NCBI GenBank assembly: GCA_934045905.1
Contig: OW203769.1
Location: forward strand, 31,437,345-31,501,344
Length of the DNA stretch: 64,000 bases
DNA from: Leuctra nigra
Lineage: Eukaryota > Arthropoda > Insecta > Plecoptera > Leuctridae
Reading direction: 5' to 3'
This document shows positions 4,705-32,339 of this stretch, piece by piece. Below the pieces are notes generated by a model, which worked only from the letters and a program-made list of their open reading frames with translations, was not told where the DNA came from and made no database searches. Position numbers and translations under genes: made by a program. The stretch's first letter is position 1. The number at the start of each line of letters is the position of its first letter.

Positions 4705-4764
4705 TTAGAAGAGGAATTCGTACAGAAACGGGCTTCCCATAGTATGTCCAATTCCTCGGTAGCT
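4705..4764 (+). ncRNA. Loop-E hairpin repeat, first copy
   Basis: Outer stem GAGGAATT (4711-4718) pairs with AATTCCTC (4750-4757). Inner stem GGG/CCC encloses CTT. The internal loop is CAGAAAC opposite AGTATG. It ends CTCGGTAGCTAG, like the later copies. It is presented as a candidate structured RNA on comparative grounds only; no transcript evidence exists here. Confidence 0.5.
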
Positions 4765-5111
4765 AGTAATAAAATTAGGTACTAATTACTAATTTCGTAA
4801 GATTTTGTTGACCTAAGCTCAGTTTTACAGGGTTTTACTAGCTAGAATTAAATTAGTGAGTTATTTGATTAATTGTTGATTTGGATTTATGTCATCATTC
4901 CAGGTGCCTGTTTCATTGTTTGTTTATAAGCTATTGCATTTTTTTAATTCAATGTGACCTTGGTGTAATTTTACCATTCTTTGGTATCGGTGGCTTACCA
5001 GTGAGAACATTTAGATTTTAGTTTGAATGATCGTAATAATTATGTCCGAACAGGCGACTGTCTCAGTAGGCATCACTTACTCTGTAGAAATGAAATCAAT
5101 GCGCATGCAAA

Positions 5112-5170
5112 TTAGAAGAGGAATTACTACAGAAACGGGTTTCTCCATAGTATGTAGGTTTCTCGATTGT
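5112..5170 (+). ncRNA. Loop-E hairpin repeat, second copy
   Basis: Outer stem GAGGAA/TTTCTC with one G-T wobble, internal loop AGAAAC opposite AGTATG. A preceding block, CCGAACAG followed by TGTCTCAGTAGGCAT (5046-5076), recurs before the copy at 9580, so the repeat unit extends upstream of the hairpin. Confidence 0.45.
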
Positions 5171-5762
5171 TAGGAATAAGATTTCTTCTTTATTATTTGC
5201 TATGTTGGCCCTGATAAGGTTTACGGGGCTCTGGCCCAAACAACATGTAGAACGTGTGCCGTAATATTGTCAATGGTACAGAATAGTTATAGTTTATATA
5301 GTTATAAAGTAGGTACCTAACTATATATATTTATATAAGTAACTATATTTATATAGTTACAGATAGTTATAAAGAAAATTCGATTGTTTCTCCATTTTTA
5401 TTTTTTAAAACCCGATTTTACCAACTGTGACAGAAGTAAGGATTGTAAAGTAATAAACTGAGTTCTACCTACTTCGTTGGTTATTGCCTTTGTTATAATT
5501 GGTAAATTTTTTGGAGGGGTCAATTCCTAGACCCAGTTTTACCAATCTTCGATTAGTACTAGTTAATCAATTAACGAAAAATAATCAATTTATGCCAAAA
5601 TACCTGGACAGGCGCTTAGGAACAACTTTCATCATTGCGGGAGGTGCCCCCCCCCCCCCCCCTTCCCCTCCAAACAAATTTCAAATTGTTCAAAATTGAA
5701 TTGGAATTGGAATTTGATTTAATTTTGGATTTGAATTGTTTGAATTTCTTCAAATTTTGAAC

Positions 5763-6386
5763 TCGACACTAAAAGTACCTAGAGAGTGCGCTAGTAAATA
5801 TAAGATGGACGCTCCCGCGAGTACAATCCCAGCGCGTGCGTACTTTTACATACAAGTCACTTAGATGACAATCGTAACGAGTTCAGTAAAAAGTTATAAA
5901 TACATCGCGAAATAACAGAAATTGATGCTTACCTCAGTGTCAACAATCAAATACAATTGGCATATTTCATTACAGCACACATTCATTCAAATTCTTGTGA
6001 AAACGAGTTGTCTATTCACCAAAAGCAGCATTTGACAGATTGCAGTTGTTTGAACGATGCGTCAAGAAAAATGTGTGTTCAGAAGGTCGTGAGAAAAACA
6101 ATTTGCATCTGTCAAATGGTGATTTTTGGTGAATAGACATATCGTTTTCACAAGAATTTGAATGAATGTGTGCTGTAATGAAATATGCCGATTGTATTTG
6201 ATTGTTGACACTAAGGTATTCATAAATTTCTGTTATTTCGCGATGTAATTATAACTTTTACTGAACTCGTTACGATTGACATCTAAGTGACTTGCCTGAA
6301 CGCGCCTTGTGCGCATGTGCACAAGTACTCGTGGTATAGATGCTAACTTTTTCCGCTAGGTGGCGTTTTGCAACTTTTAGTGTCGA
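5763..6386. mobile_element. Foldback MITE, 624 bp
   Basis: Termini TCGACACTAAAAGT and ACTTTTAGTGTCGA. Long inner arms match in inverse (CAAGTCACTTAGATG, TAACGAGTTCAGTAAAA, ATCGCGAAATAACAGAAATT, CACATTCATTCAAATTCTTG with their complements at 6130-6290). The unique centre is about 6020-6110. No target duplication was recognised. Confidence 0.8.
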
Positions 6387-7185
6387 CAAGGTCTATGTTG
6401 TGTTAGAACTTTAAAAATGTTCATAAAAAATATGAAAAATTGTTGTGTGTGCCTTTCATCATTGGGTCTGGGCGATTTTTTTAAGAATTCAAAAATTTAA
6501 AAGTGATTCTGGGACTCTAAAATGCACAAACAAAATTAAAGAACCCTCTTGTTGCCCCGGCAGTTTAAAAAGAAATTAAACAATGTATGAGTGGTTCTGG
6601 AATGTTTAATTCAATTTTTTCTCATCAATAGGGGACCAGACCAGGGATGTAAATGTTAAAACATGTCAATGAAATATTTCCAAACTTTTGAAAGATTTGT
6701 TTTTATGTATGAAATGAAAAGATATTCAACTCGTGTTTGAATATTCCCTCCCAATATTTATTGAAGTGAATATCTCATCTGATCTCATCTATAAGGACAG
6801 TATTGCGAGTTGACGTAGTGGTCGTCATGCAACTAAAAGTAAATTACTTTGATTATTCATAGTCCCATAATGTCAAGGTGTAGGTAAAGTTAAATTAATG
6901 TGTTGTCTAAAACAAATAAATATGAAGTTTTGCTATTTTCGTTGAGTTACTGAACAGAATTCCTAAAAACATTTTTTTTTATCAATATTTCACTTTTTTT
7001 TAGTGAAATATACTAAAATTACATTTTTTTGACTGCTTGAGCGCCGGTGCGCTCGTTCAACTTGCGAATAGTTAATCAGTACTTGAGGTTAATCACAGTA
7101 ATGCCTATTGAATTTTAGAATACTTATGTGAGATGTTACAGATGTTACAGGCTAAAAGCAACACATGGTCCAGCATTTTACAATT

Positions 7186-7245
7186 CTAGAAGAGGAATTT
7201 ACAGAAACGGGGTTCTTCTTAGTATGTACAATTCCTCGATAGTTA
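7186..7245 (+). ncRNA. Loop-E hairpin repeat, third copy
   Basis: Outer stem GAGGAATT (7192-7199) with AATTCCTC (7230-7237). Internal loop CAGAAAC opposite AGTATG, followed by GATAGTTAGGATT as in the first copy. Confidence 0.5.
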
Positions 7246-7652
7246 GGATTAAATTTGATTCTTTATTGGTACCTACATATGGTTTTATCATGAACTAATA
7301 CACCTCAAACAAAATAATATATATGGAACAACCGATAGGTATGTACTACCTAGATGAAATTAATGTATAGGTACCTAGGTTTATTTGGCTGCCGGGTAAA
7401 ATACCTTTAGTAAGTAATGATCACTCTTTACTACCTTGCTGCTCAGTAAGGCATTAAGTATAAACAGAACTAGAAATTATAATAGTAATAACAGAAACTA
7501 CAAAGAACAATCAGAATTAGAAATTGATGAACTATGACATCTTCAAAACAACCTCGTTCCTAGGTTACAAATATAATTCGAAAGCGACAACACAGCTTGT
7601 GAACAAATCTTCATTTAATTTCGCAACTTGTATTAGGATTCAATAGTAGGTA

Positions 7653-7861
7653 CACTCGACAATTCATAAAACGGTATTTGAAAGAAATGTATTGTCTGAA
7701 AAAAATGTGATAGAATCATCCGATGAAGTCTACTACTTACTCGTCATCTACCTCTAGTAGGTGAGCTCTGATTTCATTGATAATAACAAGGATTGATTGT
7801 CAATGAGTCTGACCAGAGCCAATCTGTTTCGTTCAAATACCGTTTTATGAATTGTCGAGTG
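7653..7861. mobile_element. CACTCGAC-type MITE, copy 1 (209 bp)
   Basis: Ends CACTCGACAATTCATAAAAC and its complement, flanked by TA at 7651-7652 and 7862-7863. The core contains ATTGATAATAACAAGGATTG. The TA duplication suggests mobilisation by a Tc1/mariner transposase. The copy at 42443 is the same length. Confidence 0.8.
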
Positions 7862-9174
7862 TACATATAGATTTTTTCTGCTTTTCGCCTAGTACATAAA
7901 GTTAGAATAGCGGATGATAGCATATTGATTATAAATATACCTAATTATTAATGTTTTAGCCTTGATAGTAACTATTGCAACATAGAAGTATATTTAATGT
8001 ATAATAAATAACTGAGCACATTTAGTTAGATCATTATGTAGTAGGTAGGTATGACGTAGCCATACTTTGGGGGAGCTCCTTTTTAAAAGGAACTAATCAA
8101 AAGTTTTGTATATGTATTTTTTATTATTATCCCGTCGATCCGAACATAATACAGATATGGGTATCGTCAGTAGCACATTTAAATTTACAAGTATATTATA
8201 CATATTAACAGATTGAAGTTTTTCGTTTTTCGTTTAAAAGTTTAAAAATCAAAAATAATATCTAAAAAGTTAAAGTTCACTAAAAACAAATATTTACTTT
8301 ACAATATGTTTTTCTGTTATACAACCAGCAAACGGGATATTTATGTTAATTTTCAAAACTCCCTTTCTCCCTAAGTATACATGTGTACAGGTCACAATAG
8401 TTTATTATTGTGAATATGATATTATAATTCTGAATTCAGCGCGCAGTGAGCAGTTATTTGTATTATTTTACTTATATTATTTCATTTTGGCCCAGCTTGT
8501 ACACAGGCAATCAGAAATCATGGATCAAGAGTCCAACCCCAAAGAATTGATGAGTGTAATCTGGACCTCAAAATAACTTCTTAATTCATTCGAAAATTTA
8601 ACTGTACGTTTAAAAAGATTCCTACGGAGAAAATAATCGAAGTAGGTATCTCAAAATTTTACTAAAAAGGAGTGTTGAGAAAGTTCCTTTTAAAATGCTA
8701 ACAGTGCTACAGCTACAGTTACAGGGGTTTTAAAAGTAACACCGATACAGTTACTTCTCGAACGACAAGTATCAGTGTTGTCAGTTACATTGTATTGACA
8801 GCAGTTACTTTCATAGTTACTTTCAATTTACAGGCATTTTTCCTTGAATGTTTTTACATTTGTACACGTTGGTGGTTGATAATAAGGGCTGTCAGGACAA
8901 GACAAAAGTCTAGTCCAGCGACATTTTAGACTTTTTGTGTGTTTTTATGCCTTCCAGAGGGTTGATTTTTACTTTTTCTCATGAATTGGACATTTTACAT
9001 TATTCAATGATGAATTAAATGTAACATGTTACATTTCAGTAAGATACCTACTCAAAATTGTAACGTGATAATAGTTACTGTTACAATTTTCAATAAAGAA
9101 AAAACTGAATAAAATTACAATAACTTCATTTTTACAGTAATATGGTACAGATACTTTTTATTGAAAAAAGAAAC

Positions 9175-9370
9175 ATGTTACTTTGTATCATGTTACTTTG
9201 TATCATGATACTTTGTATCATGTTACTTTGTATCATGTTACTTTGTATCATGTTACTTTGTATCATGTTACTTTGTATCATGTTACTTTGTATCATGTTA
9301 CTTTGTATCATGTTACTTTGTATCATGTTACTTTGTATCATGTTACTTTGTATCATGTTACTTTGTACCA
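9175..9370. repeat. 15-bp minisatellite, about 13 copies
   Basis: Unit ATGTTACTTTGTATC, nearly perfect (one ATGATAC variant near the start, a CCATATAAC end). The 15-bp unit keeps all frames open, giving artefactual repeat peptides such as MIQSN. Confidence 0.95.
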
Positions 9371-9579
9371 TATAACTACTCAACCCATGCTAAGAATAGG
9401 AACACGTTCTTATTAGAAAGGAGAAGTTCCTTTTCCAAGTATGGCTATAGTTACATGCAAATGCACTGACACACTGTTAGTTATTAGAACATTATCACAT
9501 GTCCGAACAGACAATATGTCTCAGTAGGCATAACCTATTTATACATGAGGTCACTATGTAGGTAATAGCAAAGCTCTGC

Positions 9580-9636
9580 AACAGACAGGTAAAGACCGAA
9601 CCGGGTTTCTCCGTAGTACGTTCACTGTCACGATAG
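9580..9636 (+). ncRNA. Loop-E hairpin repeat, diverged copy
   Basis: Outer stem GACAG (9584-9588) with CTGTC (9625-9629) replaces the usual GAG/CTC pairing, still followed by GATAG. The inner part ACCGAACCGGG...CCGTAGTACG keeps AGTACG. It is preceded by the same CCGAACAG...TCTCAGTAGGCAT block as the copy at 5112. Confidence 0.35.
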
Positions 9637-10871
9637 TTTAGTAATAGTTAGTACAATAAATATGCGTTGTCTAGGTGGAAGTTAGTTCCTAGTGTATTTT
9701 AAGACTAAATATTTAAATTAATAATAAGAAACAATTACCTAAGTAGGTATTTAAGTACATTTATTAAGACACAGAATGTGCTTGGCTGTTGTAGATTTTC
9801 CACGAGCGTAACAGGAAACCGAAATGTTTTGAAATAGGTACTCGATTGCGATAATTGGCGTAAAAGAAAAATACCCTGATTGAGAGGTCACCATATCGGA
9901 ACTATTATAGATAGGATTCTGACATTTGTACACATATTAGAAAACAACATTTAATATGTGAAAGTTTCAAACATCAAAAAGTTACATCAAAAAGTGGAAA
10001 AAGTTACAAATGATTGAAGTAGGTACAGTTGAAAAAAAGATTAAACCAGACGAAATTAACGTATTTGATTAATTGATTTGGAGTTACTTTGTGGGAATTA
10101 GGTGAATTTATGTTTATTTATGCATTTTTTAATTAACATAAATTTATGTTTAATAAATCTATGCGAATTTGACTTGGTTAGTAGATGTGTGAATTTATCG
10201 TACCTACCTATAACGACATTAAGCGGATTTAACATATTCAATTCATCATTGTTTTCAACGTCTTTATTCTTTCGCATTACTCGAATATTTCTGAAAATAA
10301 CACATATTAAATTTTCATTGTTCTATAGCACGTGAAAGTTTCAGCAATTAATCTTATATAGTTGTGATAGTTCACTCCCAGAAACCAGGCATATCCATTC
10401 TTGACAACTACTTCTACTAAAATAGTAATCGCTGACCTCGTAATCCTCGCCAAGTTTATGAAACACTCCAAATCTGGATCTTATACTTCTAATTTATACT
10501 GCAGCTTTCATATTCTGGATATATTTTGGATTAACAAATGGTTTTAAGCCGGTATAACTTTATGCCGAATTGCATTTTAACTCCAAATATCTCAATTATC
10601 ATGACAGTATCATGTGATTACGTCATACTTATAATACCATTACAAATGGGAGATTCATAAAGATAATAAGCCATTAAATCATGGTGATTACTGATAAAAT
10701 AATTAGTAATTACTAATTGATATTAGCTTTTTTCGGTCATAAAACTATACTCCTTTGTGAATCCAGTCTCTGAAATAAAATAAGTTAGTATGTAATTATT
10801 TTCCATTTCTCCATATTTTAGAATTGTAGATTATCTACAGTTTGAACATTTCCGTTTCTTCATAATATATA

Positions 10872-11606: not shown

Positions 11607-11796
11607 TAATAGTAGATATTTGCAGTTTAATTCAACCTTATTTTTATTCCGCATTATTTTGTTTCTGGGGGAAGAATGCCCCGACCCACTTGAAGTTCTT
11701 TGTCGAGCTCCAGAGGGTAGCCATTGTGTCGTCGTGATCGCGTATCTGGTCATGCTTCAGGAACACTGACGCTCAAATACAAATGTCGAACGATTA

Positions 11797-11858
11797 ATTA
11801 GAAGATAAGTTGGTCTCAGAAACGGCCAACACCCGAGTACGGGCAATTTCTCGATAAG
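11797..11858 (+). ncRNA. Loop-E hairpin repeat, diverged copy
   Basis: TTAGAAGA then CAGAAACGG and CCGAGTACGGG, closing CAATTTCTCGATA. Outer pairing is imperfect; the inner CGG/CCG stem and the AGTACG side are kept. A further hairpin, CCGAGAG...CCTCGG, follows at about 11868-11900. Confidence 0.35.
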
Positions 11859-12337
11859 TATTCCTTCCGAGAGTTCTCTCGAGCCTTGAGAGGCCTCGGA
11901 AAAAGAGATCTTTTTCAGAAACTTGTTAGCAGGAGAGATTATGTTTTCAAACCATTAATCGACAAACCCATCAAATTTCCAAACTAAAATAAGTGAAAAT
12001 GTATTTCCTTATTTTTATAATATTATGATTTAAATGTGCATTTATGTATGGGCTTATAAAATACTTTAGCATAGTTTCTATAGGTATGTTAGTGGTTTAT
12101 TTGACTAAAATGCAGGTAGTAAATTACGCACATGTGATAAGACATATTGGTCTAGTCAGAGTCAGACATACTTCTATGAGCTGTACCCGGATCGCTGGGC
12201 TGACTCCCTGCATATGATGCTTTTTATTTATTAAGGTTGAATGATTTTATTAATGGCGTTTAATTATTTAAGTAAAAGTTATGAGCTAGACCATAATTTA
12301 GTGTACTGATCGTCGATCGAGACAAACCCATCAAATT

Positions 12338-12400
12338 ACAAGAGTGATTCCAAACTGAAAAGACCGCAAAGCCCAAGTAGGTTCAATCACTCGATAGCTA
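12338..12400 (+). ncRNA. Loop-E hairpin repeat (GAGTGATT type)
   Basis: Outer stem GAGTGATT (12342-12349) with AATCACTC (12385-12392), internal loop CTGAAAA opposite AAGTAGG, ends GATAGCTA. It lies in a direct duplication: 12235-12480 is repeated at 12950-13205, including the AGGTTGAATGATTTTAT block upstream. Confidence 0.5.
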
Positions 12401-13052
12401 TCTTAATGAACTCTTCATGACCCACGAAACTTTTTTATCAATTACTTTTACAGCATTTCATGTTCAACTATATTTAAGGTAGAGCCATCGATCGATGTAC
12501 AAAAATATTTTTTCTTGAAATGAAAAGTTAAAAAAACGATTTCCTACATTTCAACTATATTTAAGAGACTCATTTAATGTCATGTAATTTGCAACTCCAG
12601 TGCAACAATGAGTTTTCAATTTTATGTCATCAGAGGATGAACAAAACTTTAGCATGGGAGGTATAGGAACATAATTTCGTATTTGGTCTCTAACTTTTAA
12701 AATAGCACACGTTGGTATTGTTTTCCTGATAGTATTACCATAAAAAAATGATTTTTGTTAAAATCTATCGACAAAAAAAGATCTTCATTTATACCCTAAT
12801 AATTACACGTTTTTTTTCCGCCATAAGATGTCATGGGGGAGACAACTCAATTGATCTAGTAGTGATTTATTTTTTCATGGATTGTGTGTGGTGTTATTAT
12901 CAATGTTACCAAAATTCGGAAAAATTGTGGTTATGGTGGTTCTACCTTAAGGTTGAATGATTTTATAAGAGTGTAGATATTACGCTTAGTTTTTTTAAGT
13001 CAAAACTACGAGCTAGAACATAATTTAGTGTAAGTGAAACAAGCCACGTCAA

Positions 13053-13116
13053 TTAGAAGAGTGATTCCAACTGAAAAGACCGCAAAGCCCAAGTAGGTTC
13101 AATTACTCGATAGCTA
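13053..13116 (+). ncRNA. Loop-E hairpin repeat (GAGTGATT type, wobble)
   Basis: Outer stem GAGTGATT (13059-13066) with AATTACTC (13101-13108). One C-to-T change relative to the copy at 12338 turns a G-C pair into G-T, so the stem is kept. Internal loop CTGAAAA opposite AAGTAGG. Confidence 0.5.
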
Positions 13117-13430
13117 TCTTAATGAACTCTTTATGACCCACTAAACATTTTTATCAATATGTATTACTTTTACAACATTTCATGTTCAACTAGGTATATT
13201 TAAATGGAAAAGTCTTGTTTAACGAATTGAGATTAAAATTCTGTGCAAGCGTTATATTTCTTAGAATTTGAGTGTTTCTTCGCCGGTAGAGATCGTCATT
13301 GTGTATAGGTTGTCTGTGGTATAGGTCACATGATTCTACAAATCGCGTAAATCTTACAGGAAAGAAAACTAATTTATTCTTACACTCGATTAGTAAAAAA
13401 AAAAAAAAAAATCAATTTATCAACCTTTAA

Positions 13431-15773
13431 GAGGCAAACGGAAGCGAACGGGAATCGCACGGTTCGTCAGAGCGTTTTTTGAAATTTTGTCTTCCCACTT
13501 AATAATTTAAAAAAATCAGATAGTAACGACCCATAACAGCCTAATAGACTAAATAATGCCGCAAACTGGAGTTCATTATGACCTCTGGTGCGACCTCAAA
13601 GTGTTAAATACGATATTTTTTATAAAATAATCGAAAATAATCGTCTTTAAGGGCAAGGATCGGCTGACTGATCCCAGAGAATCAGCCCTAATTGCTATTG
13701 TAGGCGGTGTTTTTAAAGGTAAATAAGGCGGGACCAGATTTGGGGACGAATTTGTTGGCATTACTGTGATTGGTCTAGCTGGGAACAATGTTTGATAACG
13801 TTGCCTTCCGACTGTAGTTCCCATGCAAAAAATGTAAACAGAAGTGAGATCGGAGACCCCGAGTATTAATTGTTATGATCGCTGGGCCCAGACTGGTTAC
13901 CAAGTCAAATGACATAATTAGCATCACTTTCACAACACGAACAAAATCATCGTGGATCAAGAATAATCACACACGCAATTAAGTGTTCAACTCCTTATTT
14001 AATAGATTGCAAATCCGTTTAATGATTTTTATTCCAACCATTATAACGGCGATATATGACACTGATCTTATTTCACCACCTGAGAGTAAAGGCCATTGGA
14101 CAAATTTGTTTACGAATAGGTAGGTATAGTCTCATTTCTCTCTGGGTTCTTTACTAAGAGAATATGTAGCTATCGCAATCAGAGCAAGAAAGTCATTTTA
14201 GTTTTTGTGCATGTGGTTCTTGTAGTGTAGTAGAATGTAGACACTGTCTACTGTCTACTTCTTGTAAGTAGAGAGTAGAAAATACGAAAAATAACGAAAT
14301 AAAGTAAAAAAATACACATGAATATTTCCAGCCTTTTCTCCGGACCATAAGTGGAATGTTGTGAAATTTATAAATCAATGAATTAGGTAACACGATGTTG
14401 AAATTTTTAAATAATATCATATCAATTGCTATGATACACATTGCAACCAAAAATATTTCTTTACATTTATAACATACAGTTTTCAATTATAAATTATAAA
14501 ATAGTGCATACAGTAGAGACACACATTGATGTGCTCTTAGCGAGCGTCGAAATTCATCTATTATTCTGCACTAGTAATTGTAGACGGGAAACCTGTTCGA
14601 CATTGTTGTCACAATGAGAATAAATACACATCGTGACATAACCTTGCCGAGATTGACGCAAGAATAATAGATAGCCCGAGATGCTACTATTTACAGTGAA
14701 TTATTATGGATGCTTAGCGAAGTGTTGCCAATTTTAACAATTATTATTCAATTCGCAGAAATATTTTTAAATCTTCAAAAAAAATTACATCTTCAAATTA
14801 AAATTTAAAATAGCATACAAAATAATAATAAGTAAAGTCTTTGTCAATACAGCGAATTTTGTAACGACAAATAAAATTATAAGAAAGATTTGTACTTGGC
14901 AGTTTTGAATATCAACATTCTACGTGTTTCTGAAAATTTTCATTTACATTTTATCAACTTACAATGAAAATTTAATTTAGGATATTTCCAATCATTTTAT
15001 ACGGTACTTTATAACAGGATCATGAAAGATTTTTCTAAATGAGGTAAGATGAATAAGACATCTCCGAGGTCCGTCTGTCTCCAATCGTCGTTGATTGCGT
15101 AAATGCCCGGGAAAGGGATTGTTGACATACAAACTCTCGCTATCAGTGCACTATTTATATTTCCATGCTGTCTATTAGGACCCTCCCATCATCCCCTTCC
15201 ACACAGTTACTGAAACTCCCAGATGTTTACTTGCAACTTTAGTCGATTATAGTGCCCCTGGTTTTAGGCAAATTACCCTACAATTAATGGTGTGAGAAAG
15301 CAAATTGTGCCTCTACCGATCAAGTTAGAAAAAAAGTTTTAAGCGCAAAGTTGCTTGAAATTAAATCTAGTTTGTGCGTCGTTGAGCCAATTTTTAAAAT
15401 TAAGTTTTTTATTCTCGCAATATATAACTACTTATAACTTTAAGGTGATTAAAAATTCCAAAAAAGTGGTCAACGTTGCACAATCTGCAATTCATTCTCT
15501 ACAACTTTGTCGCTTTAACATCTAGTCTATCTTCAACGAGAGGGGGCGATAACTGCTTTCCAGCCGAGGTCCTCATTCAGAGGCTCTTCCTTCCCCTTAA
15601 CACTTTGAGGTCGCACCTGAGGTCACAATGAACTCCAGTTTGTGGCATTATTTAGTCTATTAGGCTGTAATGGGTCGTTACTATCTGATTATTTAAAATT
15701 ATTGAGTGGGAAGACACAATTTCAAAAAACGCTATGACGAACCGTGCGATTCCCGTTCGCTTCCGTTTGCCTG
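13431..15773. mobile_element. Foldback element with TTAA duplications, host of the nested TTAA element
   Basis: Inverted arms of about 180 bp: 13431-13612 (starts GAGGCAAACGGAAGCGAACG) and 15598-15773 (complement, ending GCCTG). They are flanked by TTAA at 13427-13430 and 15774-15777. Without the nested element it would be a hairpin of about 390 bp. The arms differ by scattered substitutions, so it is older than the element inside it. Confidence 0.75.
13647..15600 (+). mobile_element. TTAA-flanked element, copy 1 (uninterrupted)
   Basis: 1,954 bp including TTAA at 13647-13650 and 15597-15600. The termini are TTAAGGGCAAGG and CCTTCCCCTTAA. Open stretches of 60-97 codons occur (14193-14486 minus, 13775-13960 minus) but look like chance frames; none resembles a transposase. 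It is inserted in the loop of the foldback element at 13431-15773. A third, diverged relative of its right half is at about 53951-54400 (plus). Confidence 0.75.
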
Positions 15774-16578
15774 TTAACTTAATAATCAAAATCAAATAAT
15801 ATAATCGCTTTCATATTCTAATGACCTGCCATCATTTTCTAATATTCTTGGGACATAATTTTATTTTTACATTAGGTATTAACCTTGAGTGCCATCAGTA
15901 AACATAAAATACAGAGGTCACTTGGGATTATTTTGAAAATGTGTACGAATAGATCACTTCAATCGTCGATAAACGACATTTCGAAAATATCCAACAATTA
16001 ATAGTTGTGGTTCACATGAAATAAAATGCGTTAGTATGTCTTGAATCCTTATCTTATTTTAGCTCGTTGTCATATCAACAGCCGTTTCAAAGTTACAATT
16101 TAGATTACCTAGTCGAGATTATTCTCAAGGCAAGGAAAACAATATTCCGGTCCAGGGGGGGGGGGGGGGGATGGGCGCACTTCCCAATTTTGGTTTTGGT
16201 TTTGGGACACTTCGAAGTCAGTTTTGAGAAGTTAGGAGGTGTATTTTGTTGGAACATTCAATATTTGATTGAATGGTGGTGGTGGGATCGGGGTGGGAGA
16301 CATGTTCAAACCTGTCCAGCAGGAAATTTTTTTGACACTTAGAAATTAGTATTTTTTTTTTTTTTTTGTTGTTTTTAAAATGAAACTATACGTAAAATGG
16401 TATGTTTTCTGCAAGCGCCCCCCGCCCCACACTGTGGACGCCCATGCCTATAACTGCTGCAGAAGTAGCAACACTGTATTATTGGTATTAAAGCTAGCTC
16501 ACTCATTTAAAAGTCAACGAAAACGAATATTAAGGTTTTGTATCACATTACCTATCTGTTTATGCACCATGGTTCATA

Positions 16579-16639
16579 TTAGAAGAGAATGTTGCTACAG
16601 AAACGGTCCAAACCGGAGTATGTTCAATTTCCTCGATAG
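16579..16639 (+). ncRNA. Loop-E hairpin repeat with CGGT/ACCG inner stem
   Basis: AGAAGAGAATGTTG then CAGAAA, inner stem CGGT (16604-16607) closing with ACCG (16612-16615), then GAGTATG and CAATTTCCTCGATAG. The outer stem is imperfect. It lies just outside the TTAA-flanked element at 16651. Confidence 0.45.
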
Positions 16640-17377
16640 GGTGTTCAGTTTTAAGGGGAAGGAAGAGCCTCTGAATGAGGACCTCGGCTGGAAAGCAGTT
16701 ATCGCCCCCTCTCGTTGAAGATAGACTAGATGTTAAAGCGACAAAGTTGTAGAGAATGAATTGCAGATTGTGCAACGTTGACCACTTTTTTGGAATTTTT
16801 AATCACCTTAAAGTTATAAGTAGTTATATATTGCGAGAATAAAAAACTTAATTTTAAAAATTGGCTCAACGACGCACAAACTAGATTTAATTTCAAGCAA
16901 CTTTGCGCTTAAAACTTTTTTTCTAACTTGATCGGTAGAGGCACAATTTGCTTTCTCACACCATTAATTGTAGGGTAATTTGCCTAAAACCAGGGGCACT
17001 ATAATCGACTAAAGTTGCAAGTAAACATCTGGGAGTTTCAGTAACTGTGTGGAAGGGGATGATGGGAGGGTCCTAATAGACAGCATGGAAATATAAATAG
17101 TGCACTGATAGCGAGAGTTTGTATGTCAACAATCCCTTTCCCGGGCATTTACGCAATCAACGACGATTGGAGACAGACGGACCTCGGAGATGTCTTATTC
17201 ATCTTACCTCATTTAGAAAAATCTTTCATGATCCTGTTATAAAGTACCGTATAAAATGATTGGAAATATCCTAAATTAAATTTTCATTGTAAGTTGATAA
17301 AATGTAAATGAAAATTTTCAGAAACACGTAGAATGTTGATATTCAAAACTGCCAAGTACAAATCTTTCTTATAATTT

Positions 17378-19454: not shown

Positions 19455-21455
19455 TATTTGTCGTTACAAAATTCGCTGTATTGACAAAGACTTTACTTAT
19501 TATTATTTTGTATGCTATTTTAAATTTTAATTTGAAGATGTAATTTTTTTTGAAGATTTAAAAATATTTCTGCGAATTGAATAATAATTGTTAAAATTGG
19601 CAACACTTCGCTAAGCATCCATAATAATTCACTGTAAATAGTAGCATCTCGGGCTATCTATTATTCTTGCGTCAATCTCGGCAAGGTTATGTCACGATGT
19701 GTATTTATTCTCATTGTGACAACAATGTCGAACAGGTTTCCCGTCTACAATTGCTAGTGCAGAATAATAGATGAATTTCGACGCTCGCTAAGAGCACATC
19801 AATGTGTGTCTCTACTGTATGCACTATTTTATAATTTATAATTGAAAACTGTATGTTATAAATGTAAAGAAATATTTTTGGTTGCAATGTGTATCATAGC
19901 AATTGATATGATATTATTTAAAAATTTCAACATCGTGTTACCTAATTCATTGATTTATAAATTTCACAACATTCCACTTATGGTCCGGAGAAAAGGCTGG
20001 AAATATTCATGTGTATTTTTTTACTTTATTTCGTTATTTTTCGTATTTTCTACTCTCTACTTACAAGAAGTAGACAGTAGACAGTGTCTACATTCTACTA
20101 CACTACAAGAACCACATGCACATAAACTAAAATGACTTTCTTGCTCTGATTGCGATAGCTACATATTCTCTTAGTAAAGAACCCAGAGAGAAATGAGACT
20201 ATACCTACCTATTCGTAAACAAATTTGTCCAATGGCCTTTACTCTCAGGTGGTGAAATAAGATCAGTGTCATATATCGCCGTTATAATGGTTGGAATAAA
20301 AATCATTAAACGGATTTGCAATCTATTAAATAAGGAGTTGAACACTTAATTGCGTGTGTGATTATTCTTGATCCACGATGATTTTGTTCGTGTTGTGAAA
20401 GTGATGCTAATTATGTCATTTGACTTGGTAACCAGTCTGGGCCCAGCGATCATAACAATTAATACTCGGGGTCTCCGATCTCACTTCTGTTTACATTTTT
20501 TGCATGGGAACTACAGTCGGAAGGCAACGTTATCAAACATTGTTCCCAGCTAGACCAATCACAGTAATGCCAACAAATTCGTCCCCAAATCTGGTCCCGC
20601 CTTATTTACCTTTAAAAACACCGCCTACAATAGCAATTAGGGCTGATTCTCTGGGATCAGTCAGCCGATCCTTGCCCTTAAGGTCAATTCGTTATTTCCG
20701 CTTCTTCTGTTCTTTGGCTTCACAACTTCCCATTTCCTTCTTCTCAGTTTTCCCTTCACTTTTCTCGCAGCCTTTCTCTGTACACCCTAACAGCATTGAC
20801 TTGCTGAATGTTGTACGGATCCCACGTCATAGGTACTTAAGTCTAGATTACATGCGCATACTGTACTGGAATTCAAATCCAACACCAACTCGCATAGTTA
20901 TTATTATAGTTATTATTCATTCAAGCAAAATACTTGAAGATTTCAGAAGTTGGATGAAGTTTGCGAATTAAAAGAGAAATTCAGTACAGAAAAGGGAAAG
21001 CCTTAGCTAAGTATGCCCACTTTCTCGATAGCTAGGTTTAAGTATTATGAATTATTTAGAATTAAGTATGTTATACTTGTATGTTACAAGGATGACTTCT
21101 CAATACCTGTAAGAATGGGATCATTAGAAGAGTAACGCAACAGAAACGCTCTGAAGTACGTTCCGTTTCTCGATAGCTAGTTAAAGTATTATTAATTAAG
21201 TATGTTATACTTACTAGTTAAATACTTACTTAGGTAATTTGATAGAATATAATAAATCCAACTGCATATTACCAATATGTATACGTAGTACTAATTTATT
21301 AGAAGAGTAAAATAGCTGAAAGGCAAGCGGCCGAGTACGTTTGATTACTCGATAGATAAACTAACATCAGAACTTGAAGACGTCTCCACGTCACTTTCAA
21401 GTAGAGAAGTTGCCGAACAATGGCGACGTCTTAAGACATGTTTGTATCGATGACC

Positions 21456-21926
21456 ATTAGAAGAGTAACGCAACAGAAACGATCCGAAGTATGTCCGTTA
21501 CTCGATAGCTAGTTTAAGTCTGATTACATGCGCATGCCGGAATTCAAATCTAATATCACTAGAGGGAGCCGTCATGTAAAACATGCCGCGCACCAGTGGA
21601 TGCGCGCGACGGCGTTCCCCACAGACAGACAGAACGGGGTAGAAAGTATAAGTATAATGATTTCAACTCGGAGTTATTTTTTATTCATTTATAGCAAAAT
21701 ACCTGAAAATTACAGAAGTAAGGTCAAATTGCCAAACTGGCCAAATCGATCTTTAAGACTCACGAGTCACTATTTAAAAGAGAAATTCAGTACAGAAAAG
21801 GAAAAAACCTAAGTATGCTCAATTTCTCGATAGCTAGATTTAAGTATTATGAATTAAGTAAGTTATACTTAAAGTTTAGTACCCACTTAGGTAATTTGAT
21901 AGAATATAATTAATCCGTATTGCATG
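21456..21926 (+). repeat. Direct duplication shared with 26164-26640
   Basis: About 470 bp repeated in the same order and strand at 26164-26640: hairpin, then GATTACATGCGCATGCCGG, a GC-rich block (CATGCCGCGCACCAGTGGAT, GACAGACAGAACGGGGTAG), a second hairpin of GAGAAATT type, then the TTAGGTAATTTGATAGAATA tail. Differences are few, chiefly a short deletion near 26430. It indicates segmental duplication within the structured-repeat region. Confidence 0.8.
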
Positions 21927-22736: not shown

Positions 22737-23830
22737 TGAAGTACCAAATGAAGAAAATAATTATTAGAAGAGTAAAATAACTGAAAGGCAAACGGCCGAG
22801 TACGTTCCTCAATACATACATGAACCAATGTAATTTAGAAGAGTAACGCAACAGAAACGATCCGAAGTATGTTCCGTTACTCGATAGCTAGTTTAAGTAT
22901 TATTAATTAAGTATAGCCGCTTTCACATAAAACGAGTTTTGCGTTTCCGTCTTTTTCTTTTTTTATATAGCCTAGAAGAGGCCGTCGAAAACAGAATGTT
23001 GATATACATTTATTATTAATGTTAGTAACAATGTGGGTGTTATTAGAGTGACGTCATTTTCGCCACGAGCGGTACTGAAAAAACCTCCCTACAATCGTGA
23101 TGGGGCGGTTTAAAAATAAAACGCGTGCAGCAAAATTTTCGGTGGTTTTGATGAGTCAATAAAAAAAACGCGAAACGCGTGTTTTGTAAAACGGCCTTAT
23201 GTTATACTTACAAACAAGTTAAGTACCTACTTAGGTAATTTGATACTTATCCAAATTCCATGTGTACCAATCATGTACCAATGCAGAAAATAATCAAGCG
23301 AGCGGAGCGAGCGTCTCCACTTGAAACTTATGGCTCGAATTTCTTTTTTTGGACTGTGTGTGTTTTATTCGTTGCTGCCAAACAAAGTAACAGATCAGGC
23401 CAATATTTTCACAAACTTATAGTAAAAACAAAGTAACAGATCAGGCCAATAATTTCACAAACTTATGTTACTATGCTGGTTGTGGACTTCATGATTTCCA
23501 GCAAGATCGGTCCATTGGTTTCATTGGAAATTGGGTTTATGTTGTTTAGGTATCATTAGTATAGCAACGAAATGTTTTACGAAAGTTTATAAAATACCTA
23601 TTGGACCATGATCACTGCAAATGTCTGTATTACTTCCTGGAGACTGTGACAATTGTTTTTAAAATTGACATATCGTCTTTGACAGTGAATGTATTGAATG
23701 TAATGTTTTGTGGCAATCTTTCCAGTTTCTGAGGAAAATCTGAACTCTTCTGAGATCCTGCAAGTGATTATTTAGGGTCTATTTACGGAATTTCGGTAAG
23801 ATCATGGTTAGGTGTGCTGTACTGTACATA

Positions 23831-25413
23831 GGGGAGACCGGGGCTAGTTGGCACACTTTTTACATTTTATGTTTTTCTGAATAAACCTTGAGAGTTATCG
23901 TATATGTCTTGATTGTTAATTGTACCCTCATGTTTTGGGATCGTAAAAACAGTGGAAATGATGGTTTTTAACTTACCAATAAATTTAAAATAAACATTTA
24001 GTCACGTGAAATCGGTGTGCCACCTTGCCCCAATTTCGGGGTAAGTTGGCACAGTACTTGGGGTATGTTGGCCCTGGTTAAGTTATATGGAAAAATGCTT
24101 AAAAGCACATACTTTTTTATTTTAATTATATTTGATATTGAATAAGTATAGATACACTTGTAATAAGTATGAAATGAAAGCATATCTTTTGTATAGATAA
24201 TTTTAAAATTATATGTTATTAAAGTGGATACAGTATAAGTGACAATATCACTTGCAAGGTTGTAGGTACACCATAACCTCAATGTATATCTGCAATTTAT
24301 AAAAGAAAATACCTACCTACCTGTTATTTCCTAGATGATGTATCATTTAATGTCATTTAATCATTTAATGTTTCATCTACGTTCCAGATATCACCTGGCC
24401 TGAATTTATGGCGATTCATTACCGTTAAAAGGTTGTCGAAGAATGCGTTCACGTTCGTTCTGTTAAAGCTCGACGCTCGAGCTAAGCTGGTGGCTTCGGG
24501 CGTTCTTATTGACAGCGTTTTATTTCTTTTGATAAAGGAAGTGAACCAGTCTGCACCAGCCATTTGCATTTCAGACCAATTTTGTGGTATTTTTACCTCA
24601 TTTGCAGAAGCATATTGAAAAGCGAGCTTTCGAACTTCTTTGGGAGACAAACCGTAGTATATATTGGATGCATTAATTATATACTTAACAAGAGCTTTCT
24701 CATCACTGTCACTAAAGACTTGTCTTGCCTTTGAATATCCAAATTTGCCAGCGCCTTGATCCAACTCTTCAGCTGTTATTTTAGAACAATACCGTGCAAG
24801 AGTTCTGAAAGGTATTTCGAAGCCCTTCGCAACGCTTCTTATTGACTTTCCTGTCTTCACGCTCCTTACAGCCTGAAGTATGATATGATGTGGAGTCTTC
24901 CCATGGTCTGTCTTTCTCTTGTAGACTCTCATGATCTATAAAAAATAATAATATTGTAAAAATTCAATTAGGCTGGCCATCTGTCAAACACATTCTAACC
25001 TTACAAACCAAAGGGGCAAGTTGGCACATATTTTGTGCCAACTAGCCCCGATATGAAATTTTGTGTTTGAGTGAGGTTATAAAATTCATTTCTGTGCGTA
25101 GGAACTAAAACTCTATGTCATTTGAAACCTTGAATCATTCTGCTGAAAGTAAATTCTTGGATTTTCGATAAAATTAATACTTCAAGAGTAAACAGGAAAG
25201 TTTCATTAGAAAAAATAGTTGGTTCTTACCCTCGAAAACTTCAAACTGCTGTAGAATCGCGAGGTGGTGACCGATCGTCGTGAACTAAGGACTGGCAGGT
25301 GCGGGGAGCGGCTAGTAATTATGTCACACAATCTTGAGATCCTAAGTCACTAATATCGCGAGTTATAGGCTCTGAGTCAACTTACCCCTGTGCCAACTAG
25401 CCCCGGTCTCCCC
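23831..25413 (-). mobile_element. Internally deleted pogo/Tigger (Tc1/mariner superfamily) element with TA duplications
   Basis: The ends are inverted repeats beginning GGGGAGACCGGGGCTAGTTG at 23831, with the matching complement ending CCCC at 25413. TA dinucleotides flank both sides (23829-23830 and 25414-25415), the hallmark target duplication of this superfamily. At 1,583 bp it is shorter than an autonomous element, which agrees with the cut transposase it contains. Internal copies of the terminal motif (AGTTGGCACA and its complement) recur at about 24050 and 25015-25045. It is inserted close to the 3' end of a Helitron-like element (23294-25452), splitting it. Confidence 0.88.
24357..24932 (-). 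pseudogene. Truncated pogo/Tigger-type transposase inside a deleted element
   Basis: Seen: 191 codons starting MRVYKRKTDHGKTPHHI. Residues about 15-50 (AVRSVKTGKSIRSVAKGFEI and following RTLARYC) form a Psq/pipsqueak-type helix-turn-helix. Residues about 90-145 resemble the CENP-B-type second DNA-binding domain (LSPKEVRKLAFQYA, then WFTSFIKRNKTLSIR). Near the end is DIWNVDET. Known: IWNVDET carries the first catalytic Asp of the DDE domain in pogo/Tigger transposases. The frame ends three codons later (LND stop), so the rest of the DDE domain is missing and the protein should be catalytically dead. It is reading-frame intact up to that point, which suggests a fairly recent internal deletion. 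It sits inside terminal inverted repeats at 23831 and 25413. Confidence 0.85.
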
Positions 25414-25459: not shown

Positions 25460-25518
25460 TATTAGAAGAGTAAAATTGCTGAAAAGCAAACGGCCAAGTT
25501 CGTTGATTACTCTATAGA
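25460..25518 (+). ncRNA. Loop-E hairpin repeat trapped between two Helitron-like copies
   Basis: TTAGAAGAGTAAAATTGC then TGAAAAGCAAACGGCC, AAGTTCG and GATTACTCTATAGACTAG. The conserved AGTA is mutated to AGTT and the following GATAG to TATAG, which suggests loss of constraint in this isolated copy. Confidence 0.45.
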
Positions 25519-26042
25519 CTAGGAAAACGCTCAGTGTAACGCGTTGATTGATAAACGAGCACCGATACGCGCTATACCTCTAATACCAATGCGTCACTTG
25601 AAATAAATTGTAATATTTTTAACGAATTTATTTTACTCTGGCAAAGATTTACTGAAGTTCAATAATATTTAAATTGATTCCCATCAATTTTTTATATGAC
25701 ATCCATTTATGGCGTCAAAAATATCAAAATCGTATTACTTTCATTTTTCTTTTAATTTACCTATCACTCATTAGAATCTAAGGTCATTTAGTGGAGAGTT
25801 GGGGTGGACAGGAAGTGACTTGGTTGAACTCAGCAGGGTGTCACGCGGTAATGTGTCATAAATAAAATAATCAACTTTTTGACTTGAATATTGCTGAAAA
25901 ACATTACAGGTCGAAATTAGAATGATATTAGTGTATGTTCAAAATTTCAGCTCGATTGGTCAGTCGGTGCGGCCAATATGGTGCGAACAAAATAAAACAG
26001 AAAGAGGCATAAGAGTCCCGTAGAAACGCTCGCTTCGCTAAC
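25512..26042 (-). mobile_element. Helitron-like element copy (short)
   Basis: On the plus strand it opens CTAGGAAAACGCTCAGTGTA and closes with ACGCTCGCTTCGCTAACTTA. It is thus the reverse orientation of the copy at 17378, reduced to about 530 bp. It contains AAAATTTCAGCTCGATTGG, a block shared with the copies at 33.7 and 47.1 kb. A structured hairpin (25460-25518) lies between it and the neighbouring opposite-strand copy. Confidence 0.5.
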
Positions 26043-26939
26043 TTAATAAACTAATGTCAGAACTTGAAGACGTATCAGCTCTTGTCTGAGTTGTCCACGT
26101 CACTTTCAAGTAGAGAAGTTGCCGAACAAGGATGACTTCTCAATACTGGATTGAATGCTTGACCATAGAAGAGTAACGCAACAGAAACGATCCGAAGTAT
26201 GTCCGTTACTCGATAGCTAGTTTAAGTATGATTACATGCGCATGCCGGAATTCAAATCTAATATCACTAGAGGGAGCCGTCATGTAAAACATGCCGCGCA
26301 CCAGTGGATGCGCGCGACGGCGTTCCCCACAGACAGACAGAACGGGGTAGAAAGTATAAGTATAATGATTTCAACTCGCAGATATTTTTTATTCATTTAG
26401 AGCAAAATACCTGAAAATTACAGAAGTTAGACACCGGCTAAAGACTCACGAGTCACTATTTAGAAGAGAAATTCAGTACAGAAAAGGGAAAACCTAAGTA
26501 TGCTCAATTTCTCGATAGCTAGGTTTAAGTATTATGAATTAAGTATGTTATACGTAAAGTTTAGTACCCACTTAGGTAATTTGATAGAATATAATTAATC
26601 CTAATTGCATGTCCCAATATGTAATTGTACCAATGCAGAAAATAATTATTAGAAGAGTAAAATAGCTGAAAGGCAAACGGCCAAGTATACGTTCATTACT
26701 CGATAGATAAACTAACATCAGAACTTGAAGACGTCTCCACGTCACTTTCAAGTAGAGAAGTTGCCGAACAATGGCGACTTCTCAATGCCGGCTGGAATGC
26801 AGCTCTATTACTTAGAAGAGTAACGCAACAGAAACGATCCGGAGTACGTTCCGTTACTCGATAGCTAGTTTAAGTATTATGAATTAAGTATGTTATACCT
26901 ACAAGTTAAGTACCTACTTAAGTAATTTAATAGAATGTA

Positions 26940-27765: not shown

Positions 27766-28149
27766 TATTTACTTATCCAAATTGCATGTTTACCCATGTA
27801 GGTACTACCAAATGAAGAACATACTAAGTATTAGAAGAGTAAAATATCTGAAAGGCAAACGGCCAAGTACGTTTGATTACTCGATAGATAAACTACTAAT
27901 AGAACTTGAAGACGGCTCAGTTCTTACTGAGTTGTCACTCTCAAGTAGAGAAGTTGCCGACCAATGGTGACGTCTCAATACCGACATGAATGGGCTCTGT
28001 ATTAGAAGAGTAACGCAACAGAAACGATCCGAAGTACGTTCCGTTACTCGATAGCTAGTTTAATAAGCTTTTTATAACTACAAGTTAAGTACCTATTTAG
28101 GTAATTTGAGAGAATATAATACATTTAAGTGCATATTTACCAATATGTA

Positions 28150-28355
28150 CACTTGGCACAACAAAAATCGATCATTCAATAAATCTGATTGACTGAATGT
28201 TCGATCGCACCATCAGAAGTGAGTCCAAGCGATCTCCTCGGCTCAATCTAGTAGGTGCCTCATATTTCAATGATAATAACAAGCTTTGATTGGTTGGAAC
28301 ATGACCAGCAGTCATTCACTTTTGTTCACCGATCAATTGCCGTTGTGCCGAGTTG
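28150..28355. mobile_element. CACTC-type MITE, diverged copy in structured array
   Basis: Inverted ends CACTTGGCACAAC and GTTGTGCCGAGTTG, TA at 28148-28149. The central CAATGATAATAACAAGCTTTG is the family core. It sits in the linker after ACCAATATG, between two structured-repeat units. Confidence 0.65.
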
Positions 28356-28719
28356 ACCTACCAAAAGCAGAACGTACTCATTCATTAGAAGAGTAAATTT
28401 TATGAAAGGCAAACGGCCGAGTACGTTTATTACTCGATAGATAAACTAATAGAACTTGAAGACGTATCAGCTCTTACTGAGTTGTCACTTTCAAGTAGAG
28501 AAGTTGCCGACCAATGGCGACTTCTCAAGAAGTCAAGACCTATTTGAATGCTACTCTATTAGAAGAGTAACGCAACAGAAACGATCCGAAGTACGTTCCG
28601 TTACTCGATAGCTAGTTTAAGTATTATTAATGAAGTATTTTATACCTACAAGTTAAGTACCTACTTAGGTAATTTGATAGAATATAATTACTTATACAAA
28701 TTCCATGTTTACCAATGTA

Positions 28720-28932: not shown

Positions 28933-29270
28933 TACCAAATGAAGAACACAGTCATTATTAGAAGAGTAAAATAGCTGAAAGGCAAGTGGCCAAGTACGTT
29001 TGATTACTCGATAGATAAACTAATGTTAGAACTTGAAGACGTCTCCACGTCACTTTCAAGTAGAGAAGTTGCCGAACAATGGCGACGTCTCAAGACATGT
29101 TTGTATCGGTGACCATTAGAAGAGTAACGCAACAGAAACGATCCGAAGTATGTCCGTTACTCGATAGCTAGTTTAAGTATTATTAATTAAGTATGTTATA
29201 CTTACAAGTTAAGGACCTATTTAGGTAATTTGATATAATATAATTACTTAACCAAATTACTTGTTTACCA

Positions 29271-31341
29271 ATTCGCGTTTTCGAGCAAAGGGGGCACACT
29301 CTAGTGTGAGAAAGTATAAGTGCTATAGATGCAATCGTTTTCGTTTCGGCCGCCAATTTATTGATGTTATCAATGTAATTTTGATCAAAAAGGCAGTATT
29401 TAATATCTTCAGAAATGAACCACAATTATGGTAAGGAATCTGGTGAAAATGATAAAATTAAGTAATAGTGGAGTCAAGATGTCCTATATAATGGCAAATT
29501 AGTGCATTTGTGATACCTTTCGTAGAAATGGGTACCCTTACTAATTCGAGTATGAGGAATCCAAAAATCAATGGCACCAACCTGAGAAATTAATACTTTC
29601 TGCGTAATTAGCATAATTAGCATAATTAATAAACATAGATAAAAAATATATACAATTTTAAAATATGGTCTTTATGAGTATCCATCGAAAGCTCGTCATG
29701 TCTACAATCCATATAAATCATAAAAAGTTAATTTTTTTCATTCACATAATAATTAAGCGCATTATTATTTATTTTATAAAAATCGCCATTCAACAAAAAA
29801 TTTTAAATGACCCTCTCAGATTTTGATAAAACTTGGTAGCATTAGTCACAAGCCCAAAGTAAAACATAAGTATTTTTTGGTTTGTCCATTTATTGATAAT
29901 TTTTGGATTTCCAGGCCCTCAAATAATCAAAATTTTGGTTTCCAAATTCCTTCACTTGAACTGTTCTGACTTTTACACCGTTTAAGTCAGAAGATTCGTC
30001 TTTTTTAAATTTGGTTAAACTAATTATTGGGTACTTATTATAGTATGGTCATTTAGGGGGGGAAAAGTCAAAATTTTGGCTTCCAAAATGCCTATTCACA
30101 AAAACGTATTTTGTGTTGTCATATGTGTGTTGTACATTTATAGCTTTCCCCTACTCCTTTCTTTCATAAACTAATATTTCTCTCCATATATGCGCTCCGT
30201 GCAAACCGTGCGCCGTGTACCCACATGGAGCGGGGGGGGTCATCATTTTGTTTCTCTCGATCGTAATTTCTAGGATACAAATAATTGATATTTGGTCACC
30301 CTACAAATAACCCTGAATATTGGGAAATTCGTCCTCACCCCCCTTAAGAAATGAGTCTGAATTTATCATGCCCCCCCCCCCCCCCCTTCCTTAACACAGA
30401 AAAGTGTTTTGACATTAAGTACCCATTGGCCATTGATTTGATAACAAAATTCCTTTCTTGTGTACATTTAACCCATATTTCATCATAATGCATTGAAAAT
30501 TAGAAGAAATCCGTTTTTGTGAATAGGCATTTTGGAAGCCAAAATTTTGACTTTTCAAATGACCTTAAATGACCATACTATAATAAGTACCAAATAATTA
30601 GTTTAACCAAATTTAAAAAAGACGAATCTTCTGACTTGAACGGCGTAAAAGTCAGAACAGTTCAAGTGAAGGAATTTGGAAACCAAAATTTTGATTATTT
30701 GATGGCCTGGAAATCCAAAAATACTCAATAAATGGACAAACCAAAAAATACGTATGTTTTACTTTGGGCTTGTGACTAATGCTACCAAGTTTTATCAAAA
30801 TCTGAGAGGATCATTTTAAGCTTTTTGTTGAATGGCGATTTTTATAAAATATTTAATTATACGGTTAATTATTATGTGAATGAAAAAATTTAACTTTTTA
30901 TGATTTATATGGATTGTAGACATGACGTGCTTTCGATGGATACTCATAAAGACCATATTATAAAATTATATATATTTTTTATCTATGTTTATTAATTATG
31001 CTAATTATGCTAATAACGCAGAAAGTATTAATTTCTTAGGTTGGTGCCATTGATTTTTGGATTCCTCATACTCGAATTAGTAAGGGTACCAATTTTCACG
31101 AAAGGTATCACAAATGCACTAATTTTAGACATCTTTACTCCACTATAATAACAAAGTAATAACGTAAATCACACAACTCACAAGTTATTACCCCTTCACT
31201 GACATTTCGATTCCGTTATGACGCCATGACACCAAACAACGTCAACAAACCAATGCGCGTCACTGCGCATGACACTTAAGTGTCATGGTGGTTATAGCGG
31301 CCTGGAAAGTGCTGCCATCTGGTCAGCCCGAAAACGCGAAT
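29271..31341. mobile_element. ATTCGCGTTTTCG-ended element carrying a nested foldback
   Basis: Ends ATTCGCGTTTTCG and AAAACGCGAAT. A 379-bp relative lacking the insert is at 63415-63793 in reverse orientation. The insert (29467-31145) interrupts the text GTAAT|AACAAAGTAATAACG, which is continuous in that relative. It lies in the linker of a structured-repeat unit, after TTGTTTACCA. Confidence 0.75.
29467..31145. mobile_element. Long foldback element, about 0.63-kb arms
   Basis: Starts AGTGGAGTCAAGATGTC; the matching end is GACATCTTTACTCCACT. The arms (about 29467-30100 and 30520-31145) are inverted copies with scattered differences, separated by about 420 bp holding a C homopolymer near 30370-30386 and a GGAGCGGGGGGGG run. 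No coding frame is supported. Confidence 0.75.
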
Positions 31342-31858
31342 ACTTACGTACCCAATTAAGAACACACTTATTATTAGAAGAGTAAAATAGCTGAAAGGCA
31401 AGCGGTGAAGTACATTTAATTACTCGATAGATAAACTAACATCAGAACTTGAAGACGTCTCCACATCACTTTCAAGCAGAGAAGTTGCCGAACAATGGCG
31501 ACTTCTCAATGGCGGTATGAATCGGTGATCATTAGAAGAGTAACGCAACAGAAACGATCCGGAGTATGTCCGTTCTCGATACTCGATAGCTAGTTTAAGT
31601 CTACGCATTTATTATTATTTTCAAGCAAAATACTTGAAGATTTCAGAAGTACAGATCACAATATAATAGAGAAATTCAGTACAGAAAAGGAAACCCCTAA
31701 GTATGCTTAATTTCTCGATAGCTTGATTTAAGTATTATGAATTGAGTATGTTATACTTACAAGTTAAGAACCTACTTAGGTAATTTGATAGAATATAATT
31801 ACTTATAAATTGCATGTTTATCGATAATGTACAATATGTCGAAAAAAATTATTAGTAG

Positions 31859-32013
31859 CAGCCTCATGCTCAAAAGAATGACCAGATGTATCGACGCAAG
31901 TGTCCAGAGTCTTCTGGATTCCGTCCATAAGATTGGCTTACGGTCTTGTGGTGTTGAGGACTGACATCCGCAAATATCTACTTGCAGACGCAACTTGATT
32001 TGAGCATGAGGCT
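31859..32013. mobile_element. Hairpin MITE abutting a structured-repeat hairpin
   Basis: Ends CAGCCTCATGCTCAAA and TTTGAGCATGAGGCTG, 155 bp, with CGGTCTTGTGG/CCATAAGATTGG in the centre. The right end touches AAAAGAGTAAAATAGC, the start of the next loop-E hairpin, which has lost its TTAG leader. Confidence 0.7.
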
Positions 32014-32339
32014 GTAAAAGAGTAAAATAGCTGAAAGGCAAACGGCCAAGCACGTTGATCACTCTAGAGATAAACTAAGACATATCAGCTCTTGTCCGAG
32101 TTGTCCACGTCACTTTCAAGTGGAGAAGTTGCCGAACAAGGCGACTTCTCAATTACGGTAAGAATGCGATGTCATTAAAAGAGTAACGCAACAGAAACGA
32201 TCCGGAGTACGTTCCGTTACTCGATAGCTAGTTTAAGTCTACATTCGCTTATCAACTCGCATAGCTATTATTCATTTCAAGCAAATTACGTTAAGATTTC
32301 GTGGACTCAATAATTTGTTATTTTACGACGTACGAGCTA

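Follow-up and report, generated by a model that had tools for sequence, protein, structure and literature searches.

A window of 64,000 nucleotides from Leuctra nigra (Plecoptera; Leuctridae; GenBank assembly GCA_934045905.1, contig OW203769.1, positions 31,437,345 to 31,501,344 of the forward strand) contains an array of 31 short hairpin modules. The evidence supports a structured RNA family in which covarying outer stems surround an invariant loop-E-like core, and which corresponds to no known family. We put at about one in two the probability that the array consists of repeated protein-binding hairpins within a single long non-coding transcript.

Copy number and search models

The window was searched on both strands, unfiltered, with a covariance model (R1) built from an alignment of 30 copies. 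R1 gave 31 matches between 4703 and 32234, all on the plus strand, with E-values of 1e-5 or less (whole window, both strands) and scores of 30.7–80.9 bits (Table 1); an earlier note on this DNA, which had counted at least 31 copies over 4705–32228 on that strand, agrees with this. After these modules come four chance-level matches, two per strand, starting at E=1.2, the best one on the minus strand reaching only E=1.4. Because R1 had been trained on nearly all of the copies that it recovers (30 of 31, the copy at 22762 being left out), a second model (R2) was built from 21 downstream copies only, as an independent test. It found 30 plus-strand matches (E≤4.5e-4). Nine of these it had not been trained on: the diverged upstream group contributes seven of its eight members, and the copy at 31530 and the truncated copy at 22762 make up the rest. 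The hairpin array is therefore confirmed as a real feature of the sequence, and the outer stems quoted in the earlier note are present in it. Two corrections apply to it: the upstream copy at 9576 (GACAG/CTGTC) was missed by R2, and that at 22762 is without its 3' arm. A further stretch at 32868–32912 (plus strand; CTAGCC/GGTTAG) looks like a copy by eye and was found by neither model.

The motif GAAA-N0-30-AGTAYG occurs 44 times in the window against 10.6 expected, a number reached by none of 100 shuffles; 40 of the 44 matches are on the plus strand, including nested ones and some outside the hairpin family. The plus-strand orientation claimed in the earlier note holds for all 31 copies; since tandem duplication yields a shared orientation, it was not counted as independent evidence for RNA. 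Pattern scans of viral contigs gave no matches. The scan of GTDB genomes gave 107 stretches; the 80 that were listed each have a single match and come from bacteria or archaea. On these 80 loci R1 reached a maximum of 26.3 bits (E=0.0017), and the matches are taken as chance because the loci had been picked by flanking words.

Families, spacing and module borders

The eight upstream copies (e1–e8) have diverged from each other, with the exception of the close relatives e6 and e7, while the downstream copies fall into three interspersed families, A (9 copies), B (10) and C (4). Eleven of the 30 start-to-start gaps between neighbours measure 131–189 nt, one measures 71 nt and the remainder are longer. 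Among seven family representatives the identity is 0.69 within the module vs 0.49–0.51 in four 70-nt flank blocks, the baseline for random pairs being 0.478; for e1–e8 the values are 0.655 and 0.49–0.52. Copies of one family (A, B or C) also resemble each other in part in their flanks (0.49–0.77), as expected of duplicates, and between families no common flank sequence was found within 140 nt of the module on either side. Given the contrast between the module and its near-random flanks, selection appears to act on a unit of about 65 nt, in which fixed flanking words, mostly TTAGAA on the 5' side and GATAG on the 3' side, are included.

Core and outer stem

The figures for the core and for the tree-based tests below refer to 27 of the 31 copies, in an alignment set by hand. 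The nearly invariant loop-E-like core reported earlier was found as described: the letters G, A and A of the 5' strand are each present in 27 of 27 copies, and A, G, U and A of the 3' strand in 27, 27, 26 and 26, so that GAA on one strand faces AGUA on the other, as in the bulged-G consensus. The outer stem (P1) has eight pairs, the outermost three of which (GAG/CTC) are almost constant. Among 28 distinct rows, pair 4 is U-A in 17, A-U in seven, G-C in two and G-U in one; pair 7 is C-G in eight and U-A in eight, and pair 8 is U-A in ten and G-C in eight. A cap helix is predicted, being visible only in folds and by eye.

Covariation in P1 was examined by shuffling the 28 distinct rows and comparing five measures. 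Canonical pairs occupy 84.2% of P1 cells compared with 77.6% in the shuffles (0 of 500 reach the observed value) and 21–52% when the arms are slid against each other, and no shuffle attains the observed covariation score or the observed number of cells in which both partners have changed, giving three of the five measures above the null. When substitutions were re-dealt over a FastTree tree, canonical pairing in P1 was 0.875 vs 0.667 under this null (p=0.0005), and covarying comparisons numbered 328 vs 62, with none of 2000 replicates reaching 328. An R-scape-like test of the 13 proposed pairs gave E-values of 0.006 for pair 13-65, 0.023 for pair 17-61 and 0.14 for a third; the remaining proposed pairs were not significant. 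The claim of covarying stems thus stands for P1 as a whole against the tree-based null, and pair by pair for two of the 13.

Table 1. Modules of the array and associated features in the window. Scores are in bits; "untrained" marks copies outside the R2 training set.
Feature	Position	Strand	R1	R2	Remark
e1 (GAGGAATT/AATTCCTC)	4703..4769	+	66.4	40.6	untrained
e2 (GAGGAATT/GGTTTCTC)	5110..5176	+	58.7	31.2	untrained; G-U pairs
e3	7184..7249	+	65.6	45.4	untrained
e4 (GACAG/CTGTC)	9576..9643	+	30.7	missed	weakest; R1 score as training member
e5	11796..11864	+	52.5	26.6	untrained
e6 (GAGTGATT/AATCACTC)	12334..12404	+	65.5	53.8	untrained
e7 (GAGTGATT/AATTACTC)	13051..13120	+	69.1	58.8	untrained
e8	16577..16646	+	54.3	30.5	untrained
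Family C	20966..21038	+	61.9		
Family B	21122..21183	+	71.0		
Family A	21297..21362	+	73.4		
Family B	21455..21515	+	76.5		
Family C	21772..21840	+	73.8		
Family A	22762..22822	+	41.6	43.4	3' arm lost; in neither training set
Family B	22833..22894	+	79.6		
Family A	25460..25524	+	56.6		
Family B	26163..26223	+	71.7		
Family C	26458..26525	+	75.6		
Family A	26647..26713	+	63.2		
Family B	26810..26871	+	77.6		
Family A	27829..27894	+	75.8		
Family B	28000..28061	+	80.9		
Family A	28383..28447	+	62.6		
Family B	28557..28618	+	80.9		
Family A	28956..29021	+	73.4		
Family B	29114..29174	+	76.5		
Family A	31372..31437	+	63.7		
Family B	31530..31596	+	63.4	58.2	untrained; insertion in 3' arm
Family C	31661..31728	+	66.1		
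Family A	32012..32076	+	51.5		
Family B	32173..32234	+	77.6		last confirmed copy
Example A-to-B linker	28448..28556	+			two predicted hairpins (ACTTGAAG..CTTTCAAGT; GAGAAGTTGCC..GGCGACTTCTC); fold, unit alignment
Companion motif 5' of e2	5042..5079	+			aligns with 9499-9537 in 39 columns at 84.6%, E 6e-4
Companion motif 5' of e4	9499..9537	+			matches 5042-5079, E 6e-4

Comparison with known RNA families

The earlier note had recognised no known family, and the searches agree. Rfam 15 gave no match in the window at the gathering threshold, and the six sub-threshold matches obtained at E≤5 over 4500–33500 lie on none of the 31 modules. ARAGORN found no transfer RNA (tRNA) or transfer-messenger RNA genes in the window. 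The literature searched, including the portion of PMC9917219 that it covered, describes no such array, most subscription journals lying outside the coverage.

Several classes were set aside on structural grounds. A microRNA precursor has a near-continuous stem of about 22 bp, and the module has an 8-bp P1, a short middle helix (P2) and a cap. The hairpin ribozyme combines a loop A, in which a GUC-type cleavage strand faces AGAA, with a loop B; here, by inspection against the consensus, AGAA faces GATAG and not an NGUC strand. Selenocysteine insertion sequences and the hammerhead ribozyme were dismissed in the same way. Clusters of H/ACA small nucleolar RNAs (snoRNAs) resemble the array in being hairpins grouped in non-coding sequence, and differ from it in that ACA lies within 5 nt of P1 in none of the 30 copies having a 3' arm; the module also has a short cap stem and no Rfam match. 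ACA anywhere in 25 nt was seen in 7 of 30 copies and ANANNA at most 12 nt upstream in 5 of 30.

The core itself recalls the sarcin-ricin loop and loop E of 5S ribosomal RNA, in whose consensus GAA likewise faces AGUA beside a C-G pair, although in the array it forms just one part of an unassigned hairpin, the 5' strand carrying GAA and the 3' strand AGUA, and there is no ribosomal RNA match. In general layout it is like the A-repeat of Xist and like Rsx, long RNAs with many short stem-loops separated by spacers, for which multivalent protein binding is the working mode, as proposed for the array too; the likeness is one of layout, and the core here is a different one, loop E. The roX1 and roX2 RNAs of Drosophila are long RNAs of an insect in which structured stem-loops recur and are bound by a protein complex. 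The copies of the array are far more numerous, and there is no Rfam match at threshold (roX boxes were not separately searched).

Coding potential and splice sites

The modules do not look coding: they differ in length by numbers of nucleotides not divisible by three, and all three plus-strand frames contain stops in 25 of the 31. The window has 27 open reading frames (ORFs) of at least 100 amino acids, often in overlapping frames of tandem repeats; five lie inside the array, of which one has a Pfam match, a sub-threshold one to a transposase. In all, 447 stop-to-stop segments of at least 45 amino acids were listed outside 44.0–46.95 kb, and 14 ORFs or segments were given to Pfam, with sub-threshold transposase matches for one only. 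The ORF with these matches (24360–24935, minus strand) is a fragment of a Tigger/pogo-type (CENP-B/psq) transposase, for which a protein search returned 151 matches, with relatives among fish, insects and molluscs and in Hydra; two further protein searches returned one match and none. The 5' and 3' splice-site scores near 24 of the 31 modules, obtained with score matrices, are mostly ordinary compared with random positions (lowest p=0.04).

Proposed function and alternative explanations

The plus strand of this locus most likely gives rise to one long non-coding transcript, with a primary RNA of at least 27.5 kb bearing about 31 hairpins of about 65 nt. Each hairpin would consist, in order, of a TTAGAA flank, the 8-bp P1, the short P2, the loop-E (bulged-G) core GAA/AGUA, a short cap and a GATAG flank, and one RNA-binding protein would meet an identical three-dimensional surface on every copy; repeated in this way along the long RNA, the surface would make it serve as a multivalent scaffold or sponge. 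Transcription, a single common transcript, the protein partner and the multivalent function are what we infer from the sequence. A common transcript is suggested because the flanks show no common promoter for each copy; with no cross-family promoter or terminator, ordinary splice scores and a non-coding look, the modules would belong to a longer non-coding transcript. A constant non-Watson-Crick core set in a stem that tolerates change has the look of a docking site for a protein (or RNA), and 31 copies of it point to multivalent binding.

A number of results weigh against this explanation. In the shuffle test the doubly changed pairs (4 vs 3.8) and the pair types (13 vs 12.0) did not exceed the null. 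In the R-scape-type check recommended earlier, pairs 13-65 and 17-61 are significant within the proposed set, whereas none of the proposed pairs is when all column pairs are considered, and the top-scoring column pair is not a proposed one. Paired changes on the same branch number just 0–2 per P1 pair, since many copies are recent tandem duplicates, and P1 positions 7 and 8 are unpaired in 11 and nine of the 28 rows, respectively. P2 is plausible and weak (p=0.015 for pairing, 0.127 for covariation under the tree-based null), and a candidate TTAG/CTAG helix between the flanks is without paired changes. The RNAalifold consensus keeps six P1 pairs at only -2.6 kcal/mol. The mean folding z-score at 32 sites is -1.30 on the plus strand and -1.21 on the minus strand, so that folding energy does not pick a strand. 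Finally, an ORF at 16380–16718 crosses module e8.

The copies might instead be small structured RNAs of about 65–160 nt, separately transcribed or excised and each its own gene, as in clusters of small nuclear RNAs or snoRNAs. The 11 gaps of 131–189 nt would suit a compact native unit of this kind, and small-RNA genes are commonly tandem-duplicated; cross-family flanks that are near random out to 140 nt, leaving no common external promoter or terminator, together with the want of Rfam or tRNA matches and of ACA beside the outer stem, make it unlikely.

It is quite unlikely that selection acts on DNA, the modules being palindrome-like sites of a DNA-binding protein or a cluster of insulators. 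The arms are indeed inverted repeats whose reverse complement folds about as well, but they vary in a paired fashion around a fixed asymmetric core, and P1 cells hold six G-U pairs against two A-C mismatches, though these are few events.

That the array is the debris of an old satellite, a tandem repeat under no selection in which common descent makes the stems look paired, is very unlikely in our judgement. Families A, B and C arose by tandem duplication and their linkers are homologous, a single orientation is the default in tandem arrays, this one has been invaded by repeats and transposons, and pairwise covariation is significant in just two of the 13 proposed pairs. Against such debris, identity is kept in the module alone while the cross-family flanks are near random, and the core is nearly invariant while the pair changes in P1 exceed the tree-based null.

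A role in alternative splicing, with AGTAYG read as A/GTAYG and the hairpins regulating 5' splice sites by sequestering them, is highly improbable: GTAYGT is like a 5' splice site and G stands at +5 in 25 of 27 copies, but 5' splice sites do not typically have an unvarying A at -1, this reading does not explain the constant GAA of the opposite strand, and the best splice scores near the modules are the mostly ordinary ones given above. That the transcript is a chromosome-regulating long RNA of the Xist/roX type, serving for example the dosage control of a Z chromosome (a lepidopteran source being assumed) with its 31 loop-E hairpins docking a single RNA-binding protein, is a long shot.

Structure backed by covariation is rare and disputed in long non-coding RNAs; for the array of protein-binding hairpins favoured here, the evidence for structure comes from paralogous copies within one locus. 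The 31-copy motif would provide a direct handle, as RNA bait, on a protein partner, and the array offers a test of multivalent RNA scaffolding in an insect.

Linkers, companion motif and surroundings

The linkers between A and B copies were aligned over seven full units and one partial unit. Of the two hairpins predicted in the example in Table 1, that formed by GAGAAGTTGCC and GGCGACTTCTC has a GACGTC change which breaks one pair in three of the eight rows, and no claim of conservation is made for it. The fold of 28361–28660 has a z-score of -4.34 for the whole 300 nt, two modules included. A string similar to the companion motif found 5' of e2 and e4 (CCGAACA..GGCGAC/GTCTCA) also occurs in A-B linkers, e.g. 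at 28507–28527.

A short way upstream of e4 lies a 15-bp minisatellite (CATGTTACTTTGTAT) of 13 copies (9174–9371). Module e8 is flanked by inverted, near-identical copies (99.6–99.9%) at 13639–14873/19455–20689 and 14873–15604/16647–17378, suggesting a recent insertion or rearrangement within the array. TTTTTT words number 101 on the plus strand and 59 on the minus strand of the array (4.7–32.9 kb), and 59 and 121, respectively, in 33–64 kb, a bias that may reflect the direction of transcription or the orientation of repeats.

The window is mostly A+T-rich with many dispersed and inverted repeats, and the stretch holding the array is gene-poor. Outside the array, a 154-bp unit is repeated in tandem 18 times at 44057–46828 with 99% matches and a G+C content of 0.55 vs about 0.35 around it; one ORF from this repeat had no Pfam match. 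At 52213–52644 there is a 30-bp tandem repeat of 14.4 copies, which is open in several frames.

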